Origin: Pseudonocardia autotrophica
Lineage (GTDB): Bacteria; Actinomycetota; Actinomycetes; Mycobacteriales; Pseudonocardiaceae
Length of the DNA: 64,000 nt
Assembly: GCF_003945385.1 (NCBI RefSeq)
Contig: NZ_AP018920.1
Coordinates: forward strand, 930,001-994,000
Direction: 5' to 3'
This document shows, piece after piece, positions 31,392 through 41,724 of this stretch; the first letter of the stretch is position 1; each line of letters opens with the position of its first letter. A program made the position numbers and the translations under genes. The notes beneath the pieces were generated by a model. The model saw only the letters and a program-made list of their open reading frames with translations. It was not told where the DNA came from and ran no database searches.

Positions 31392-33227
31392 ATGCCCGAG
31401 AACCTGCTCAACCTGGAGAACGTCACCGCGCACGTGCCCGGTGACGCCTCGCGGGTGCTGCTCGACGCCGTCTCGCTGGGGGTGGAACGCGGCGAGCGGA
31501 TCGGCGTCGTCGGCCTCAACGGCGGCGGCAAGACCACCCTGCTCGACGTGATCACCGGGGAACGCCCCACCGAGGGCGGCCGGGTCAGCAGGCTCGGCGG
31601 CCTGCGGATGGCGCACCTCGCCCAGCGGGACCGGTTCCCGGCCGGGTCGACCGTGCGCGACATCGTGCTGCAGCACTACGGCGCCGATCACGAGTGGGCG
31701 TCCGATCCGCGGGTGCGGGACGTGCTGGACGGACTCGGGATCACGCCGCGGAGCGGAGCGGGAGCGTCCGTCGACACCGCACTGGAGCGGCCCACCGACG
31801 GGCTCTCCGGTGGGGAGAAGCGGCGGGTCGCGCTGGCCGCGGCACTCGTCGGCGAGCTCGACCTGGTGGTGCTCGACGAGCCCACCAACCATCTCGACGT
31901 CGAGGGCATCGGCTGGCTGGCGAACCACCTGATCGCCCGCCGGATCGCACTCGTCGTCGTCACGCACGACCGCTGGTTCCTCGACACCGTCTGCACCCGC
32001 ACCTGGGAGGTCGCGAACGGGCAGGTCGAGTCGTATCTCGGCGGCTACGCCGACTGGGTCTACGCCCGGGCCGAGCGCACCCGGCAGGCCGACGCCGCCG
32101 AGCAGCGCCGCCGCAACCTCGCCCGCAAGGAACTGGCCTGGCTGCGGCGTGGCCCGCCCGCCCGCACCTCGAAGCCGCGGTACCGGATCGAGGCCGCCGA
32201 GGCGCTGATCGCGGACGTCCCGGCCGCGCGCAACACCGTCGAGCTGATGCAGTTCGCCACCAACCGGCTCGGCCGCACCGTGCTGGAGCTGGAGGACGCC
32301 ACGGTCGAGATCGCCGGGCGGACCCTGCTGGACCGGGTGACCTGGCGGCTCGGCCCGGGCGACCGGGTCGGCATCGTCGGGATCAACGGATCCGGGAAGA
32401 CGACGCTGCTGCGCGCGCTGACCGGTGAGCGGGAGCTGGACTCCGGCCGCCGGGTGCAGGGCAGCACGGTGAAGCTGGCGCAGCTGACCCAGGAGCTGAT
32501 CGACCTGCCCGCCGAGATGCGGGTGCTGGAGGCGACCGAGGCCGTCGCCAAGTACGTGCGGCTCGGGAAGCAGGAGATGACGGCGTCGCAGGTGCTGGAA
32601 CAGCTCGGGTTCCCCGCGGCCCGGCAGTGGACACCGGTCGGACGGCTCTCCGGCGGCGAGCGTCGCCGGTTGCAGCTGACCCGGCTGCTGATGGACGAGC
32701 CGAACGTGCTGCTGCTCGACGAACCGACGAACGATCTCGACGTCGACACCCTCGCCGGGCTGGAGGACCTGCTCGACGGCTGGCCGGGGACGCTGGTCGT
32801 CGTCAGCCACGACAGGTACCTCACCGAGCGGGTCTGCGACCAGGTGCTGGCGCTGTTCGGCGACGGGAACCTGACCCACCTGCCCGGTGGGATCGGCGAT
32901 TACCTGCAGCGCCGGGCGGCCGCGGGCCGCGGCCCGGCCGGGCAGGCCTCCGCCGCACCGGCATCCGCGTCGGCCCCGGCCCGGGCCGGGGACGCCCCGA
33001 AGGTGGACGCCGCCGCGCAGCGGACCGCCCGCAAGGACGCGCAGCGTCTCGAACGGCGGATGGAACAGCTCACGAAGCGTGAGGAGCGGCTGCACGGCCA
33101 GCTGGCCGAGGCGGCCACCGACCCGGACCGGCTGATGGAGCTGGACCGGGAGCTCAAGGCGGTCGTCGCCGAGCGGGAGACGGTCGAGATCGAGTGGCTG
33201 GCGGCCGCCGAGCGCGCCGAAGGATAG
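31392..33227 (+). CDS. ABC-F family ATPase (ribosome-associated)
   Basis: GGAGGAACTG precedes the ATG; 611 residues with two ATPase domains and no membrane part. First domain: GVVGLNGGGKTTLLDVITGE, LSGGEKRRVALAAALVGE, LVVLDEPTNHLDVEGIGWLA. Second: GIVGINGSGKTTLLRALTGE, LSGGERRRLQLTRLLMDE, VLLLDEPTNDLDVDTLAGLE. The inter-domain linker is charged and helical, and a C-terminal coiled coil (KDAQRLERRMEQLTKREERL) follows. ABC-F proteins act on the ribosomal E site as translation factors or antibiotic protectors. The ispE neighbourhood suggests the housekeeping type. Confidence 0.94.
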   Translation: MPENLLNLENVTAHVPGDASRVLLDAVSLGVERGERIGVVGLNGGGKTTLLDVITGERPTEGGRVSRLGGLRMAHLAQRDRFPAGSTVRDIVLQHYGADHEWASDPRVRDVLDGLGITPRSGAGASVDTALERPTDGLSGGEKRRVALAAALVGELDLVVLDEPTNHLDVEGIGWLANHLIARRIALVVVTHDRWFLDTVCTRTWEVANGQVESYLGGYADWVYARAERTRQADAAEQRRRNLARKELAWLRRGPPARTSKPRYRIEAAEALIADVPAARNTVELMQFATNRLGRTVLELEDATVEIAGRTLLDRVTWRLGPGDRVGIVGINGSGKTTLLRALTGERELDSGRRVQGSTVKLAQLTQELIDLPAEMRVLEATEAVAKYVRLGKQEMTASQVLEQLGFPAARQWTPVGRLSGGERRRLQLTRLLMDEPNVLLLDEPTNDLDVDTLAGLEDLLDGWPGTLVVVSHDRYLTERVCDQVLALFGDGNLTHLPGGIGDYLQRRAAAGRGPAGQASAAPASASAPARAGDAPKVDAAAQRTARKDAQRLERRMEQLTKREERLHGQLAEAATDPDRLMELDRELKAVVAERETVEIEWLAAAERAEG

Positions 33228-33351: not shown

Positions 33352-33447
33352 GGGGGGAGCGGTTCGGTTCCGCCGCCGCCGTCGGGGGGTGGCGGTGGGA
33401 CCGGGCCGATCGCCGGTGTGAGGTCGCCGCCGGCAGCGATCCGATCC

Positions 33448-33577
33448 TGTCCGGCCCTGTCAGGGCCGTGTCGGAGCAGTGTCAGAGCCGCGTCCGGGCC
33501 GTGCCAGGGCAGCGCCAGAAAAGTGCCAGGTGTATCGGAGCCCGTGTCAGGGCCGTGCCAGCCCGGTGCCAGCGCCC
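33448..33577 (+). promoter_or_regulatory. Array of about eleven 11-bp tandem repeats before the drrAB-like operon (candidate SARP sites)
   Basis: Units related to TGYCAGRGCCG start at 33448, 33458, 33469, 33480, 33491, 33502, 33513, 33524, 33545, 33556 and 33567. Spacing is 11 bp almost throughout (one 10, one 21 that can hold a degenerate unit). All units therefore face the same side of the helix. The array ends 17 bp before the ATG of the exporter ATPase gene. SARP activators are known to bind direct repeats spaced by 11 bp, and a SARP-type regulator is encoded just behind the exporter genes. Confidence 0.7.
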
Positions 33578-33594
33578 GGGCGCACCCTGGACCC

Positions 33595-34560
33595 ATGAAT
33601 GCTCTTCCGCCCGCCATCGAGGTCGACGGGCTGGTCCGCACCTTCGGCGACGTCCGCGCCGTCGACGGCATCTCCTTCACCGCACATCCCGGTCAGGTAC
33701 TCGGTCTGCTCGGCCCGAACGGCTCCGGCAAGACCACCACCGTCCGGATGCTCGCCACGCTGCTGCCACCGACGGCGGGGCGGGCCGCCGTACTCGGGCA
33801 CGACGTCGTCGCCGATCCCGCCGGTGTGCGCCGCCGGATTGGTCTCACCGGGCAGTACGCCGCGGTCGACGAGGCGCTCACCGGCCGCGACAACCTGGTG
33901 CTCATCGCCCGGCTGCTGGATCTCCCCGGCCGGGCCGCGCGGGCCCGTGCCGACGAGCTGATCGAGCGGTTCGGGCTCACCGAGGCCGCCGGGCGCCGGG
34001 TCCGCACCTACTCCGGCGGCATGCGCCGCCGGCTCGACCTCGCCGCCAGCCTGGTCGGGGACCCGGAGGTGCTGTTCCTCGACGAGCCGACCACCGGGCT
34101 CGACCCGCGGCACCGCAACGAGGTGTGGGAGGCCGTCCGCCGGCTGGCCGACGAGGGCGTCACCGTCCTGCTCACCACCCAGTACCTGGAGGAGGCCGAT
34201 CAGCTCGCCCACGATCTGGTCGTCCTCGACCGGGGCCGGGTGATCGCCGCCGGGACGGCGGCCGAGCTGAAGTCGCAGACCGGCGGCCAGCTCCTGCACG
34301 TGCGTCCGGTCCGCCAGGGCGACGCCCGGCAGGTCGCCGCGGTCGTCGCGGCCGAGACCGGCGCCGAGCCCTCGATCGCGCCCTCCGGCGAGGTCAGCGT
34401 CGCCGCCGCCGACCCGGGCGCGCTGGGCCGCACCGACATCCGGCTGACCGAGGCGGGGATCGCGGTCGCCGAGATCGGCCTGCGGCTGCCCAGCCTCGAC
34501 GACGTCTTCCTCAGCCTCACCGGCCACCAGACCGGCACCACCGACGGAGAATCCGCGTGA
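33595..34560 (+). CDS. ABC exporter ATPase, DrrA (daunorubicin resistance) family
   Basis: A 321-residue ATPase: LLGPNGSGKTTTVRMLATLL (Walker A), VRTYSGGMRRRLDLAASLVG (signature), EVLFLDEPTTGLDPRHRNEV (Walker B) and VTVLLTTQYLEEADQLAHDL (switch). The DrrA-type C-terminal domain follows, ending LRLPSLDDVFLSLTGH. The start ATG at 33595 lies 17 bp behind a repeat array and has no ribosome site, so the mRNA may be leaderless (inference). The stop overlaps the permease GTG by four bases. Drug or metabolite export is the family role. Confidence 0.93.
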   Translation: MNALPPAIEVDGLVRTFGDVRAVDGISFTAHPGQVLGLLGPNGSGKTTTVRMLATLLPPTAGRAAVLGHDVVADPAGVRRRIGLTGQYAAVDEALTGRDNLVLIARLLDLPGRAARARADELIERFGLTEAAGRRVRTYSGGMRRRLDLAASLVGDPEVLFLDEPTTGLDPRHRNEVWEAVRRLADEGVTVLLTTQYLEEADQLAHDLVVLDRGRVIAAGTAAELKSQTGGQLLHVRPVRQGDARQVAAVVAAETGAEPSIAPSGEVSVAAADPGALGRTDIRLTEAGIAVAEIGLRLPSLDDVFLSLTGHQTGTTDGESA

Positions 34561-35387
34561 CCGCCACCCTGACCGAGCACCCGCCGACGCCCGGCCCGAC
34601 GGCGCCGGCTGCCGCCCGCCGCAGCTGGGTGCCCGCCCCGCTGCGGCACAGCGCCGCGCTCGCCCGCCGCGGGCTGATCAAGACGATCCACTCGCCGGAG
34701 GCGCTGCTGGACGTGACACTGCAGCCGATCATCTTCCTGCTGCTGTTCGTCTACGTGTTCGGTGGTGCGATCGCCGGCAGCAGCGACGACTACCTGCAGT
34801 ACGCGCTGCCCGGGGTACTGCTGCAGACCGTCGTGTTCGCCTCGGCCGGAACCGGTGTCGGCCTGGCGGAGGACCTCAAGACCGGGATCTTCGACCGGTT
34901 CCGCAGCCTGCCGATCTCCCGGGCGGCGCCGCTGGTCGGCGCGGTCGGCGCCGACCTGGTCCGCTACATCACCTCCGGCGTGATCATGCTGGCCTTCGGT
35001 TTCGCGCTCGGCTACCGGACCTCGGCCGGTCCGCTCGCGGTGCTGGGTGCGTTCGGCCTGGTGGTGCTGTTCGCCTTCGCGATGTGCTGGATCTTCACCG
35101 CACTCGGGGTGGTGTCCCGCGAGCCGCGTTCGGTGCAGGGCATCAGCGCGATGATCATGCTGCCGCTGACGTTCGCCAGCTCGGTGTTCGTCCCGGTCGA
35201 GACCATGCCGGACTGGCTGCGTCCGTTCGCCGAGGTGAACCCGGTCAGCCGGTGTGCCGACGCGGTCCGGGCCCTGCTGGCCGGTGAGCCCGCCGCGGCG
35301 GCGACCACCGCTTCGCTGGTGACGTCGGCGATCGTCGTTGCGATCTTCGCGCCGCTGGCGGTCACCCTGTACCGGCGGCGGACCTGA
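34557..35387 (+). CDS. ABC-2 type exporter permease, DrrB family
   Basis: The 276-residue protein has six helices with the ABC-2 pattern: LLDVTLQPIIFLLLFVYVFG in the first helix, then LQYALPGVLLQTVVF, LKTGIFDRFRSLPISRAAPL (the coupling loop) and PLTFASSVFVPVETMPDWLR followed by PFAEVNPVSRCADAVRALLA. It pairs with the upstream ATPase. Its 3' end overlaps the 3' end of the converging SARP gene by 26 bp, so transcription of one could hinder the other. Confidence 0.93.
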   Translation: MTATLTEHPPTPGPTAPAAARRSWVPAPLRHSAALARRGLIKTIHSPEALLDVTLQPIIFLLLFVYVFGGAIAGSSDDYLQYALPGVLLQTVVFASAGTGVGLAEDLKTGIFDRFRSLPISRAAPLVGAVGADLVRYITSGVIMLAFGFALGYRTSAGPLAVLGAFGLVVLFAFAMCWIFTALGVVSREPRSVQGISAMIMLPLTFASSVFVPVETMPDWLRPFAEVNPVSRCADAVRALLAGEPAAAATTASLVTSAIVVAIFAPLAVTLYRRRT

Positions 35388-38300
35388 CGTCGTGAGATCG
35401 CAGCGGCCGGGGAGCGACGTCGCGGGCGGCGACCCGGCCGCGGGCGATCGCGGTGTCCGCGCCACCCCGGCCGAGCGCGGCGACGACGGCGTCGCGGGTC
35501 GCGATCACGTCCGGGTCGCCGAGATGCAGGGTTCCCCGCCGGGCGATCGCGATACCGAGCAGCTCACCGGCCCGTTCCGGGTCGCCGACGGCGACCGCCC
35601 AGCGGGCCGATCCCTCGGCGGCCATGCCGAGCACCGGGCCGTCGTTGCTCTCCAGGGCGGTGTCCGCGGCGGTGTCGAGGAACTCCCGGGCGGCGTCGAT
35701 CCGGCCGAGGTCGAGCTCGGCGGCGGCCGCGAAGAGATGCTGCAGGGTCACCCGCTGGAGCCGGCCCGCCTCGGGCCCGCTGACGGTCCAGGACTCGTCG
35801 AGGAGGGTCCGGGCACGGGCCGGCCTGCCGAGCCGTCGCTCGACGTCGGCGCGGCCCCAGTCGATCCAGGACATGGTGCGCTGGCGGGGGTGTTCACGCA
35901 GGTGCCTCTCGGTGAGCTCCAGCTGTTCGCGGGCCGCGGACTCGTCGCCGCGGCGGGCCGCGAGACCGGCCAGCTGCATGCGGAAGTGCGGGAGGTCGTC
36001 GAGATTGCCCAGCTCCGCGGTCAGCGCGATCGACTCGGTCCAGGCGGCGCAGGCGGCCTCCCCGTTGCCGGCGAGATCCTCCAGCTCGCCGAGCGACGCG
36101 ACGGCCAGCCCGAGTCCGTATCGGTCACCGACCGCGCGGAACAGCGGGTGCGCGACCCGCAGGTAGGCGCGCTGCTCGTCGATGTCGCCCTCGTTCTCGG
36201 CGTGCACCGCCGCCAGGAGCGCGGCCGCGCCGCGCAGCCAGGGGGCCTCATCCCCGGTGACCAGGGCGCCCAGCTCGGAGCGGTCACCCGAGCTGAATGC
36301 CCGCGCGGCCGGTCCGGCGAGGACGACGGCCGGGTGCCGTGGGTGCGGCAGGCCGGGGAGCGCGGCCTCCACGGCGTCGATCTCGGCGGGCGCACCCTCG
36401 ACGGCGACGTAGCCGGCGAGCAGGAGTGCCCGGATCGCCCGGTTCGTGGTCGCCGCCGGCTCCCCCTCCGGCGGGTCGAGCCGGGCAACCAGGTCGGACC
36501 AGTGGAGCAGCGCGATGTTCTCGCCGCGGATCACCCAGCTCCAGGACACCGCCGCCAGCAGCCGGTGTGCGTGCGCGGGCCGGGGATCGGTGACCGCCCG
36601 GTCGAGGGCCCGGAACGCTTCGCCCTCCACCCGGCGCAGTACCGCCAGCCGGTCGAGCTGGCTGCGGGTGCGCAGCACCGGCTCGCCGGGTTCGAGCACC
36701 GCCAGCAGCCAGTCGGCGTGCGCCCGCACCACCGGTCCGGACTCTCCGGACTCGGCCAGCCGGGCCGCCGCATACTCCCGGATCGTCTCCAGCATCCGGT
36801 AGCGAGTGGGCCCGCCATCGGGATCCTGCGTCGCGACGACCAGGGACTTCTCGACCAGCGAGTCCAGCAGGCCGAGCGGGTCGCCGTCGAGATCGCCGGC
36901 ACCGCACACGACCTCCACGGCATTCGCCTCGACCGGCCCGGCGAACACGCCGAACCGCCCGGCCAGGACGCGTTCGGGCCCGCCGAGCAGGTCCCAGCTC
37001 CAGTCGACGACCGCGCGCAGCGTCTGGTGCCTGGGCAGCGCCGTGCGGCTGCCGGAGACCAGCAGCCGGAACCGGTCGGCCAGGCGGTCGGCGATCTCGC
37101 GGGCGCTCAGCGTCCGGGCGCGGGCCGCGGCCAGCTCGATCGGCAGCGGCTGCCCGTCGAGCCTGCGACAGATCTCGGTGACGGTCGCGGGATCCGCGGT
37201 GAACCCGGGGGCGACCGCCGCCGCGCGGTCGGTGAACAGCCGGGCGGCCTGCGCGTCGTCGAGCGCGCCGAGCGGGTGCAGCAGCTCGCCGGGCACCCCC
37301 AGCGGCTCCCGGCTGGTGGCGAGCACCGTCAGGCCCGGCACCGTGCCCAGCAGGTCGTCCACGAGCCCGGCGACGGAGTCGATCAGGTGCTCGCAGTTGT
37401 CCAGCACCAGCAGCAGCTCACGGCGGGCCAGCGTGCTGCGCAACCGGGTCAGGGTGTCCGGCCCGGTGCGGTCGCCGAGGGCGAGATCGGGGCCGCCGAC
37501 GGCGTGCAGCACGGTCGCCGCGAGCTGCTCGGCCCCGGCGAGCGGCGCCAGCTCGGCCACCTCCACCGGGCGGTCGAGATCGCGCACGACCTCGCTGACG
37601 ACCCGGGTCTTCCCGGCCCCGCCCGGTCCGGTGACGGTGATCAGGCGGGCACTCGGGAGCAGCGAACGGAGCCGGGCGAGATCGTCGTCCCGGCCGACGA
37701 ACGAGGTCAGCGCGGGTGCCCGGTGGCGCGGGGTCACCGCCGGTTCGGCCCTGGTGACCACCGTTCCGGCCCTGGTCATCGCCGTTTCGGCACTGTGAGC
37801 TGCCGTCCCGGCACCGGGCACTGCTGTCCCGGCACCGGGCACTGCCGTCCCGCCGTCGGCTACCGCGGTCCCGTCGGCGGCTACCGCGGTCCCGCCGTTG
37901 GTCACCGCGGTCCCGGCCCGGGCCGCCGGCGCCCGACCGGCGCCCGGGCCGTTGCCGGAGGGGGCGTCGTGCAGCAGCTCGGTCCGGGCGGCCCGCAGCT
38001 CCGGGCCCGGGTCGACACCGAGCTCCTCGGCCAGCGCGGAGCGGGTGCGATCCAGCACGGCGAGTGCGTCGGCCCGGTGCCCGGTCGCGTGCAGCACCCT
38101 GGCCAGCGCGACGGCGGAGGACTCCCGCAGCGGCTGCTCGGTCAGTACGTCGGACAGCACACCGCTGACCGCCCCGGGCCCGGGTACTCCGTCGTCGATC
38201 GTGCGGCGGGCCAGCTCCTCGGCCACCGCGGCACGGGCCTCGGCCAGCCGGGCCGCCGCCGGTCCGGCGAACGGGACCTCCCGCAGGTCGGCCAGCGCCG

Positions 38301-38685
38301 GGCCGGACCACAGACCGAGCGCCCGTTCCAGGAGGTCACGGGCCCGGGCACGATCCGGTTCGGCTCCGGCGTCGCGCCGCAGCGCCGCGAACCGCAACGC
38401 GTCGACCGCGCCGGTGCCGACGTCGAGCCGGTAGCCACCCGGTACCGAACGGACCCGGTCGGCGCCCAGGGATCGCCGCAGCCGGGACACCAGCGACTGC
38501 AGCGCGTTCGCCGTCGACGGCGGGGCCGGGCCCCACAGGGCGTCGACCAGGGTGCCGGCGTCGACCGGATGGCCGGCGTCCAGCGCCAGGCGGGCCAGCA
38601 GCCCGCGCAGCCGCGGACCGGCAGGCAGCAGCTCCGTACCGGACCCGTCGAGCGCGGACACGGTGCCGAGCAGCCGGATTTCCAT
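35362..38685 (-). CDS. Large SARP/AfsR-type regulator (winged helix, BTAD, NB-ARC ATPase, TPR)
   Basis: Order in the 1107 residues: OmpR-like winged helix (1-90, MEIRLLGTVSALDGSGTELL … GADRVRSVPGGYRLDV), BTAD (about 95-240, ALLRDAGAEPDR-like RARDLLERALGLWSGPALAD), a linker of nine 7-residue repeats (256-318, units such as GGTAVAA), an NTPase domain (ITVTGPGGAGKTRVVSEVVR; LLLVLDNCEHLIDSVAGLVD; LTVLATSREPLGVPGELLHP) and a C-terminal TPR-like helical half. Such proteins activate specialised-metabolite or exporter genes by binding direct repeats. The array of 11-bp repeats before the converging exporter operon is a likely target. It starts 20-44 bp from the divergent hydrolase gene. Confidence 0.95.
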   Translation of the reverse strand: MEIRLLGTVSALDGSGTELLPAGPRLRGLLARLALDAGHPVDAGTLVDALWGPAPPSTANALQSLVSRLRRSLGADRVRSVPGGYRLDVGTGAVDALRFAALRRDAGAEPDRARARDLLERALGLWSGPALADLREVPFAGPAAARLAEARAAVAEELARRTIDDGVPGPGAVSGVLSDVLTEQPLRESSAVALARVLHATGHRADALAVLDRTRSALAEELGVDPGPELRAARTELLHDAPSGNGPGAGRAPAARAGTAVTNGGTAVAADGTAVADGGTAVPGAGTAVPGAGTAAHSAETAMTRAGTVVTRAEPAVTPRHRAPALTSFVGRDDDLARLRSLLPSARLITVTGPGGAGKTRVVSEVVRDLDRPVEVAELAPLAGAEQLAATVLHAVGGPDLALGDRTGPDTLTRLRSTLARRELLLVLDNCEHLIDSVAGLVDDLLGTVPGLTVLATSREPLGVPGELLHPLGALDDAQAARLFTDRAAAVAPGFTADPATVTEICRRLDGQPLPIELAAARARTLSAREIADRLADRFRLLVSGSRTALPRHQTLRAVVDWSWDLLGGPERVLAGRFGVFAGPVEANAVEVVCGAGDLDGDPLGLLDSLVEKSLVVATQDPDGGPTRYRMLETIREYAAARLAESGESGPVVRAHADWLLAVLEPGEPVLRTRSQLDRLAVLRRVEGEAFRALDRAVTDPRPAHAHRLLAAVSWSWVIRGENIALLHWSDLVARLDPPEGEPAATTNRAIRALLLAGYVAVEGAPAEIDAVEAALPGLPHPRHPAVVLAGPAARAFSSGDRSELGALVTGDEAPWLRGAAALLAAVHAENEGDIDEQRAYLRVAHPLFRAVGDRYGLGLAVASLGELEDLAGNGEAACAAWTESIALTAELGNLDDLPHFRMQLAGLAARRGDESAAREQLELTERHLREHPRQRTMSWIDWGRADVERRLGRPARARTLLDESWTVSGPEAGRLQRVTLQHLFAAAAELDLGRIDAAREFLDTAADTALESNDGPVLGMAAEGSARWAVAVGDPERAGELLGIAIARRGTLHLGDPDVIATRDAVVAALGRGGADTAIARGRVAARDVAPRPLRSHDVRSAAGTG

Positions 38686-40418: not shown

Positions 40419-40566
40419 GACCTGCCGGTGCGGATCGTGTGCGGGTACCGAGGACACCCGGACCCCGGAGGACCGGTGCCCAGCGGGATCCGCTGCCGGG
40501 CAGCGGATCCGGCTCGACGCCCCGGAGGCGCTGACCGGACCGGTGGTCAGGGGCGTCCGTCGATGA
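40419..40566 (+). pseudogene. Degenerate partial copy of the neighbouring alpha/beta hydrolase gene (3' third)
   Basis: The DNA from GACCTGCCGGTGCGGATCGT (40419) on repeats the hydrolase gene from 39352: the acid-residue region TACCGAGGACACC, then, after a deletion of about 60 bp, CTCGACGCCCCGGAGGCGCT as at 39480. A base change and a frameshift near GTGTGCGGG break the frame (readable pieces: GTEDTRTPEDR and IRLDAPEALTGPVV). The 3' end overlaps the wHTH gene. It marks a local duplication flanking the LLM gene. Confidence 0.75.
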
Positions 40567-41074
40567 CCAGGAACCGTTCGGAGGGGTCGTAGCGGTAACC
40601 GACGCCGCGGACGGTGACCACCGGTGCCGGGGTCCAGGTGAGCTTGGCCCGCAACCGGGACAGGATGACGTCGACGGCGCGCGGACCGAGCGACCCGTCC
40701 GCGTCGTCCAGGCGTTCGCAGAGCTCCTGGCGTGACACCGGCTGGTGCGGACGTTGCACGAGATGGGTGAGCACGGTCGACTCCCGTGGTGTCAGCCGGA
40801 CCTCCACCCCGTCGACGAGCAGCTCCTGGGCGCCGAGCTCGTAGACCCCGCGGGTGGCGAGCGGGTGCTTGGCCGAGCCGAGCACGGACACCGTCGGGAC
40901 GTGATGGCCGGGCGCGACCCGGGGCAGCCGGTCGAGCAGGGTGCGCACCACGTCAGCGACGTCGTGTGCGGACTCCGCTGGATCGGCGGTCTCGATCTCG
41001 ACCAGCAGCCGGACCCGCGGCCGGGTGGGCGGGTCCGCCGGGCCGGGCCCGGTCGTGGTCGGCTCCGATGTCAT
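40547..41074 (-). CDS. Winged-helix DNA-binding protein (OmpR-type effector domain, no receiver)
   Basis: The C-terminal 100 of 175 residues are an OmpR/PhoB-type winged helix: VEVRLTPRESTVLTHLVQRP, HQPVSRQELCERLDDAD, SLGPRAVDVILSRLRAKL and VVTVRGVGYRYDPSERFL. The N-terminal part has a short unrelated alpha/beta text (VRLLVEIETADPAESAHDVA) and no phospho-acceptor domain. The start overlaps the HAD gene stop (ATGA). As last gene of the nicotinamide salvage operon it is a candidate for its regulator. Confidence 0.88.
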   Translation of the reverse strand: MTSEPTTTGPGPADPPTRPRVRLLVEIETADPAESAHDVADVVRTLLDRLPRVAPGHHVPTVSVLGSAKHPLATRGVYELGAQELLVDGVEVRLTPRESTVLTHLVQRPHQPVSRQELCERLDDADGSLGPRAVDVILSRLRAKLTWTPAPVVTVRGVGYRYDPSERFLVIDGRP

Positions 41075-41724
41075 CCGGCTCCTTCCCGGACCGCCCGGTC
41101 CTGCAGCAGCCCGCGTCCGGCGGCGTAGGCCTCCCGCAGGTCGTCGCCGTCGTAACTGAGCCGGGCGAGTCCCTTGATCTCGTCGTCGGCGTTGACCGCC
41201 ACCGAGAGCGGGACGGCCCGGAACAGCGGTACGTCGGTGTAGGAGTCGCCGTAGGCGACACAGTCGCGGGGCGTGAGAGCGTGCTGTCGCAACAGGTCCG
41301 CCACGATCGTGACCTTCGCCGCGGCGGTCAGCACCCGCTCCTCGTCCAGCGGCCCGGCGATCGGCACGTCGGTGGCGTGCACCGCGTCCGCCCCCCACCC
41401 GCGCAGCCGGTCCACGAAGAAGCGCGGGGACATGGACACGACGACCGAGTGCTCACCACGCCCGGAGATGTCCGCCCACACCTCGGCGATGCCCTGCAAC
41501 CAGGGGGCGCCCCGGAAGGCCGCGTCGATGTCCTGGTCGGTCAGGGTCTGCCAGATGGGGTGACAGGCGCGGTGGAATTCCAGGTTGTCGATCTCACCGG
41601 CGGAGGACGCGACCTCCAGCACCTCGATCTCGGAGAGCCTGCCGATCCGCCTGCCGATCTCCAGGCTCGCGCTGGTCCCGCGCAGCAGCGTGCCGTCCAT
41701 GTCGAAGACGTGCAGCGCGCTCAC
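41071..41724 (-). CDS. HAD-superfamily phosphatase (SerB-like, HAD-IB)
   Basis: The 217-residue protein starts LHVFDMDGTLLRGTSASLEI (motif I, nucleophile and acid Asp), with a helical cap, motif II in SVVVSMSPRFFVDRLRGWGA, and the C-terminal block CVAYGDSYTDVPLFRAVPLS (motif IV). This is the HAD-IB/SerB arrangement. It overlaps both neighbours by four bases. In an operon for NAD precursors it could act on a nucleotide or a phosphorylated by-product; this is inference. Confidence 0.92.
   Translation of the reverse strand: MSALHVFDMDGTLLRGTSASLEIGRRIGRLSEIEVLEVASSAGEIDNLEFHRACHPIWQTLTDQDIDAAFRGAPWLQGIAEVWADISGRGEHSVVVSMSPRFFVDRLRGWGADAVHATDVPIAGPLDEERVLTAAAKVTIVADLLRQHALTPRDCVAYGDSYTDVPLFRAVPLSVAVNADDEIKGLARLSYDGDDLREAYAAGRGLLQDRAVREGAG

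Follow-up and report, generated by a model that had tools for sequence, protein, structure and literature searches.

The systems closest to the one considered here are promoters activated by regulators of the SARP family. According to the accessible text on AfsR and the afs box of afsS in Streptomyces coelicolor (PMC10936776), the repeats of SARP-activated promoters are spaced by 11 or 22 bp, and 8 bp separate the 3' repeat from the −10 element. The same text places the SARP contacts on the first 8 bp of each repeat unit, has T88 of AfsR contacting a base, and gives CACTGT as the −10 element of afsS. For PimR, the regulator of pimM in Streptomyces natalensis, the accessible part of PMC5930380 reports that three repeats are optimal and a fourth adds little, that two triplets lifted expression almost 5-fold, and that operators with up to six repeats have been engineered. 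The sites of DnrI, ActII-ORF4 and other SARPs, as far as the available text of PMC10972967 describes them, are heptamers at 11-bp steps before target genes.

The locus studied here lies in a 64-kb stretch of DNA (the window) that spans positions 930001–994000 of its contig and belongs to a 7.5-Mb Pseudonocardia genome. The gene order is an ABC-F gene (31392–33227), drrA, the overlapping drrB, and then a large SARP gene converging on them; an array of eleven hexamers precedes drrA (Table 1). With the AfsR/afsS system as described in PMC10936776 the locus shares a large SARP that appears to carry NTPase and TPR parts, direct repeats with an 11-bp period, a distance of 8 bp from the contacted 8 bp of the last unit to the −10 element, and a poor −10 element of the form CANNNT (predicted to be CACCCT in the window). 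The afs box differs in having two repeats instead of eleven and a word of the CGTT(T/C)ATCG type instead of TGYCAG, and the target of AfsR is afsS, whereas the putative target of the window SARP is the adjacent exporter. Moreover, the window SARP scores 125.8 bits against the NCBIfam AfsR equivalog NF053617, over residues 4–255 only, and the cut-off of that model is 1430. The PimR operators, judging by the accessible parts of PMC5930380 and PMC10972967, resemble the window in a triplet of 11-bp units with a second upstream block in cis and in a 10-bp step, and differ in that PimR is a SARP-LAL and its target is a regulator gene. The DnrI, ActII-ORF4 and other SARP sites differ in having two or three units and in lying within biosynthetic gene clusters (PMC10972967, accessible text).

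Table 1. Features of the drrAB–SARP locus (window coordinates)
Feature	Position	Strand	Remarks
Leading unit TGTCCG	33448..33457	+	10 bp ahead of the next unit
Distal block, seven 11-bp units sharing register	33458..33534	+	among the compared genomes, only this one has the block
Hexamer-free 10-bp stretch	33535..33544	+	register shifted by 1 bp
Proximal (core) operator triplet, three units sharing register	33545..33577	+	kept in relatives
Predicted −10 element CACCCT, without a −35 element of its own	33583..33588	+	10 bp after the last hexamer; position inferred
drrA-like ABC exporter ATPase, 321 aa	33595..34560	+	TIGR01188, 343.6 bits, above the drrA cut-off of 312.45
drrB-like exporter permease	34557..35387	+	GTG start overlaps the drrA stop; PF01061, PF12698
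Large SARP, 1107 aa, converging on drrB	35362..38685	−	OmpR-type DNA-binding domain, BTAD, NTPase, weak TPR matches
Predicted recognition helix NALQSLVSRLRRSL, SARP residues 60–73	38467..38508	−	alignment to AfsR 8hvr

The permease scores below the NCBIfam drrB cut-offs (TIGR00025, 112.7 vs 146.9 bits; TIGR01247, 87.7 vs 223.05 bits) and hence is called drrB-like. The N-terminus of the SARP matches PF00486 (31.8 bits, cut-off 26.2) followed by the BTAD domain PF03704 (91 bits, cut-off 22.1); in the C-terminal half PF13401 is above its cut-off, and TPR models matched below theirs. Residues 5–242 align to the AfsR structure 8hvr with E 1e-26, and the EmbR structure also matched. Inside the SARP gene, at 37732–37923, 21-bp tandem repeats code for a repetitive linker (about residues 255–318) that joins the BTAD to the NTPase part. 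The minus strand also encodes, at 40547–41398, a protein of 283 aa that carries a C-terminal OmpR-type DNA-binding domain.

Every hexamer of the array (33448–33577) is at most one letter off [TC][GA][TC]CAG, and the steps between them are, from 5' to 3', 10, 11, 11, 11, 11, 11, 11, 21, 11 and 11 bp. The preliminary description spoke of eleven in-phase 11-bp repeats ending 17 bp ahead of the exporter ATG (33595): the eleven hexamers are present and the coordinates of the end agree, but the phase is broken by one 10-bp and one 21-bp step. Given these two slips, the distal block of seven and the proximal block of three were treated separately. Two of the distal units, TGTCGG (33469) and CGTCCG (33491), are degenerate, both lacking the core A. 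Chance periodicity was ruled out by shuffling and by the top rank of the array in the window: a scan of the 64 kb for period 11 gave a best 130-bp segment starting at 33452, within the array; the 11-bp self-match of 33401–33594 is 0.62, compared with a mean of 0.34 (SD 0.04, maximum 0.48) in 2000 dinucleotide shuffles, and the longest chain of TGYCAG-like hexamers in the same region is 10, against at most 4 in the shuffles.

Orthologs of drrA with 67–84% identity were found in 30 genomes besides the window's, out of 60 of the genus that were searched, the next best match having 60%. We aligned the upstream regions of 33 loci (31 from Pseudonocardia, including the window, and two from Actinomycetospora), anchored on the predicted −10 element. 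In this footprint 31 rows were long enough; L110 and L116 were left out as lying on short contigs, and L128 was anchored by eye. In the 31 upstream regions TGTCAG is kept at three places 11 bp apart, with 0.8–2.6 bits in the hexamer columns, and the last conserved hexamer lies 10 bp from a −10-like CANNNT; columns farther upstream than the triplet have at most 0.4 bits. Only three hexamer places being conserved, we take the triplet as the common operator and the eight further units as the window's own. The core A is near-invariant in relatives (85 of 93 unit positions of the core). The distance from the −10 element to the ATG is 6 bp in 9 rows and 7 bp in 23 (32 rows computed), and the leader of L128 is longer; whether a row received a 6-bp or a 7-bp gap was decided on the A and T within the −10 element, so that the invariance of these two letters is partly built in, and the hexamers were not used in it.

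The same alignment bears on a reading in which the array is coding and drrA begins at an in-frame GTG at 33418. The frame is indeed open from 33418 to 34560. However, 22 of the 33 orthologous regions have an in-frame stop in the 240 bp that precede the aligned ATG, and what is conserved is spaced hexamers whose period is not a multiple of three; we rejected this reading and give it practically no credence.

The window promoter agrees with the spacing rule for SARP-activated promoters: its last unit, taken as TGCCAGCG, lies 8 bp from the predicted −10 element CACCCT. When the afsS coordinates are transferred to this last unit, transcription is predicted to begin at the ATG (33595) or immediately beside it, in which case the drrAB mRNA would be leaderless.

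A convergent AfsR-type SARP gene follows drrAB in 29 of the 31 Pseudonocardia loci; in the two exceptions (L038 and L109) the contigs end 1.8 and 1.1 kb past the drrA start. In 25 of the 31 an ABC-F gene is found no more than 7.2 kb upstream, and L114 and L118 have a second SARP-like gene on the opposite strand, some 2.2 kb ahead of drrA. Downstream of drrAB, convergent SARP-like genes are likewise present in loci of Actinomycetospora, Microbacterium, Rhodococcus and Nocardioides; of 20 loci examined in full from a set of 60 further ones, 18 have such a gene. In L244, one of these 20, neither a SARP nor repeats were detected; in L257 the SARP match is only weak, and the shorter locus L215 of the same genome shows a convergent SARP match. 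The pairing of a SARP with DrrAB appears to be widespread in Actinomycetota.

The co-occurrence of the repeats with the SARP was assessed with the word left free, by searching about 150 bp before drrA for three hexamers that resemble one another, are spaced by 11 bp and are followed after 10 bp by NANNNT, with p from 200 shuffles. Loci without a drrA match or with too short an upstream region were dropped beforehand; of the 108 loci taken, 12 with no SARP hit and at most 6.5 kb downstream were excluded from the comparison. The layout was found at p≤0.05 in 47 of 54 SARP-linked loci and in 6 of 42 without a detected SARP, many of the latter not being actinobacterial. As the loci are related, no overall probability is claimed. 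Among the footprint loci (Pseudonocardia and Actinomycetospora) that have a SARP within range and a sufficiently long upstream region the layout is kept in 29 of 29, so that the loss of repeats in relatives retaining the exporter–SARP pair, envisaged in the preliminary description as a possible refutation, was not observed. Outside the footprint set it is found in 18 of 25 SARP-linked loci, the seven misses being L045, L048, L050, L250, L251, L252 and L258. The six positives without a detected SARP are L257 and five loci (L047, L060, L063, L077, L097) whose words do not start with TG. By eye, GTGTAT...ATACGC-like words are seen before drrA in twelve loci without a linked SARP (L071, L072, L074, L076–L081, L083, L085, L087), suggesting a regulator of a different type there.

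The operator word varies among the SARP-linked loci. Pseudonocardia and some relatives have TGTCAG, Nocardioides and other families have TGAAAC/TGAAGG (L240, L245–L248 and L253 are TGAAAC-type loci), and a Rhodococcus locus has TGCAAG; L258, grouped with the TGTCAG type, reads TGACAG, and its layout has p=0.26. All 31 SARPs read beside TGTCAG-like operators have the predicted recognition helix NA(L/V)Q(S/A)L, and all 21 read beside TGAAAC-like operators have K-x-LQV (L104, L109, L126 and L257 were left out of the reading, and L038 was outside the scan); L039 and L041 carry other helices, ASLQTL and NALHTQ. The residue after the helix Q (S or A versus V) aligns with T88 of AfsR. The association tracks related clades and hence represents few independent changes. 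L212/L259, from a genome of the window's own family, combine a TGAAAC-type operator with the K-x-LQV helix, which is one case in which the pairing goes with the SARP and not with the host family.

Matches to the three-unit pattern with at most one mismatch are confined, in the window's genome, to three places within the array; the reversed-pattern control gave none. With up to three mismatches there are fewer matches than in the reversed control (14+11 vs 27+20), and no drrA was found within about 10 kb of two loose matches near 5.18 and 7.08 Mb. Across 62 genomes of the genus, three TGYCAG at 11 bp with at most one mismatch gave 26 matches, that is, 23 distinct places, and only the window's genome had three matches in one array. 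Nine places precede this drrA family and eight are near other SARP-like genes, so that 17 of the 23 lie within 1.5 kb of one or the other; six are near neither drrA nor a SARP. The reversed control yielded 10 places, two of them near a SARP-like gene. SARP homologues near the places were called at E≤1e-4, with weak scores of 56 bits in L142, 75 bits in L147 and 57 bits in the control L262. In L132, L139, L145 and L155, from other Pseudonocardia genomes, a triple TGYCAG stands before short-leader genes with a SARP gene pointing the opposite way; these are probably further SARP operators with the same word, not before drrA. In L136 and L154 the triplet TGTCAG, TGCCAG, TGTGAG precedes a gene, with no SARP match within 1.5 kb.

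The binder might be another OmpR-type winged-helix regulator, such as PhoP, whose sites are likewise direct repeats with an 11-bp period, or a different SARP encoded in the genome. Sites of AfsR and PhoP overlap in Streptomyces (PMC10972967, accessible text), and the genome encodes seven BTAD proteins, so that another SARP could bind. Against this, the repeat layout accompanies the linked SARP, the word varies with the helix of that SARP, and the triple (at most one mismatch) is absent elsewhere in the genome, as expected of a local regulator; we regard a different binder as improbable.

We thus read the repeats, with a probability of about 0.8, as the operator of the drrAB promoter, presumably bound by the neighbouring AfsR-type SARP, with the proximal triplet holding RNA polymerase on a poor −10 element and a leaderless mRNA. 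Linkage, SARP spacing, the occurrence of repeats with a linked SARP and of the word with the helix all point to a SARP-type operator and to the convergent 1107-residue protein as the best candidate binder, in line with the original proposal. We count against this reading the seven of 25 SARP-linked loci outside the footprint set above p 0.05, the six of 23 triple places without drrA or SARP, the two of ten reversed places near a SARP-like gene, and the distal block, which is not conserved and has two degenerate units. We infer binding, activation, leaderlessness and sensing as follows. SARP protomers would occupy the three proximal units as neighbours, with the last unit located where a −35 element would act; the bound SARP would hold RNA polymerase at CACCCT, and transcription from or next to the ATG would give a leaderless drrAB mRNA. 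A compound, or the effect of one, is presumably sensed by the NTPase/TPR half, which would then govern the DNA-binding half in the way that ATP does in AfsR.

The array length was rightly described as unusual. Among 57 loci (the 54 SARP-linked ones plus L038, L109 and L257, with the word fixed by helix type) the longest chains contain 11 units in the window, 5 in seven loci, 4 in 15, 3 in 30 and 2 in four. No relative with a long array was found in these loci; the nearest ortholog found, L101 (85% in drrA), has three units by loose count and two above the score threshold. L111, L113 and L115 have two extra units of the CGTCAC or CGTCAG type 22 bp above the triplet and are the second-longest operators after the window's.

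Two readings of the eight upstream units were weighed. In the seven distal units, letters depart from the consensus, which was derived from these same units, at 4 of 42 hexamer positions and 12 of 35 linker positions (p=0.008); the distal hexamers are moderately better kept than the linkers, which leans towards constraint on these units. When T is demanded at position 3, the hexamer departures become 7 of 42 (p=0.064). The triplet with an upstream block resembles the two-triplet case of PimR, and on this analogy we give slightly better than even odds that the eight units serve this lineage as additional SARP sites, bound and raising the occupancy of the core triplet. It is also quite conceivable, at somewhat under even odds, that the proximal triplet alone is the operator and that tandem duplication starting from it produced the upstream units, which would be tolerated but have no effect; the absence of more than five units from every other locus of the 57, the loss of the core A in two distal units and the small gain from a fourth repeat for PimR (PMC5930380, accessible text) speak for this, and the lower variation of hexamers than of linkers speaks against it, at the p values just given. 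Bolder, and in our opinion rather unlikely, is the idea that a stand-alone efflux switch, widespread in Actinomycetota and made up of drrAB and a convergent STAND-type SARP whose operator word changes with the recognition helix, has grown an eleven-unit antenna here, on which SARP protomers would assemble as a row and turn an on/off promoter into a graded or ultrasensitive one.

No SARP–drrAB operator or long SARP array was found in literature titles and the openings of abstracts, which is weak evidence, as subscription papers are mostly outside this scope. The kind of system, a SARP operator, is already known; new are the array length and the apparent breadth of the SARP–DrrAB pairing together with the operator–helix pairing. 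The circuit of regulator, operator and exporter is predictable from sequence, with one testable rule for the promoter, in which three hexamers are followed after 10 bp by CANNNT and, about 7 bp further on, by the ATG. The pairing of helix and word might allow SARP sites to be predicted from protein sequence, and the long array offers a natural experiment in how many activator sites one promoter can use.
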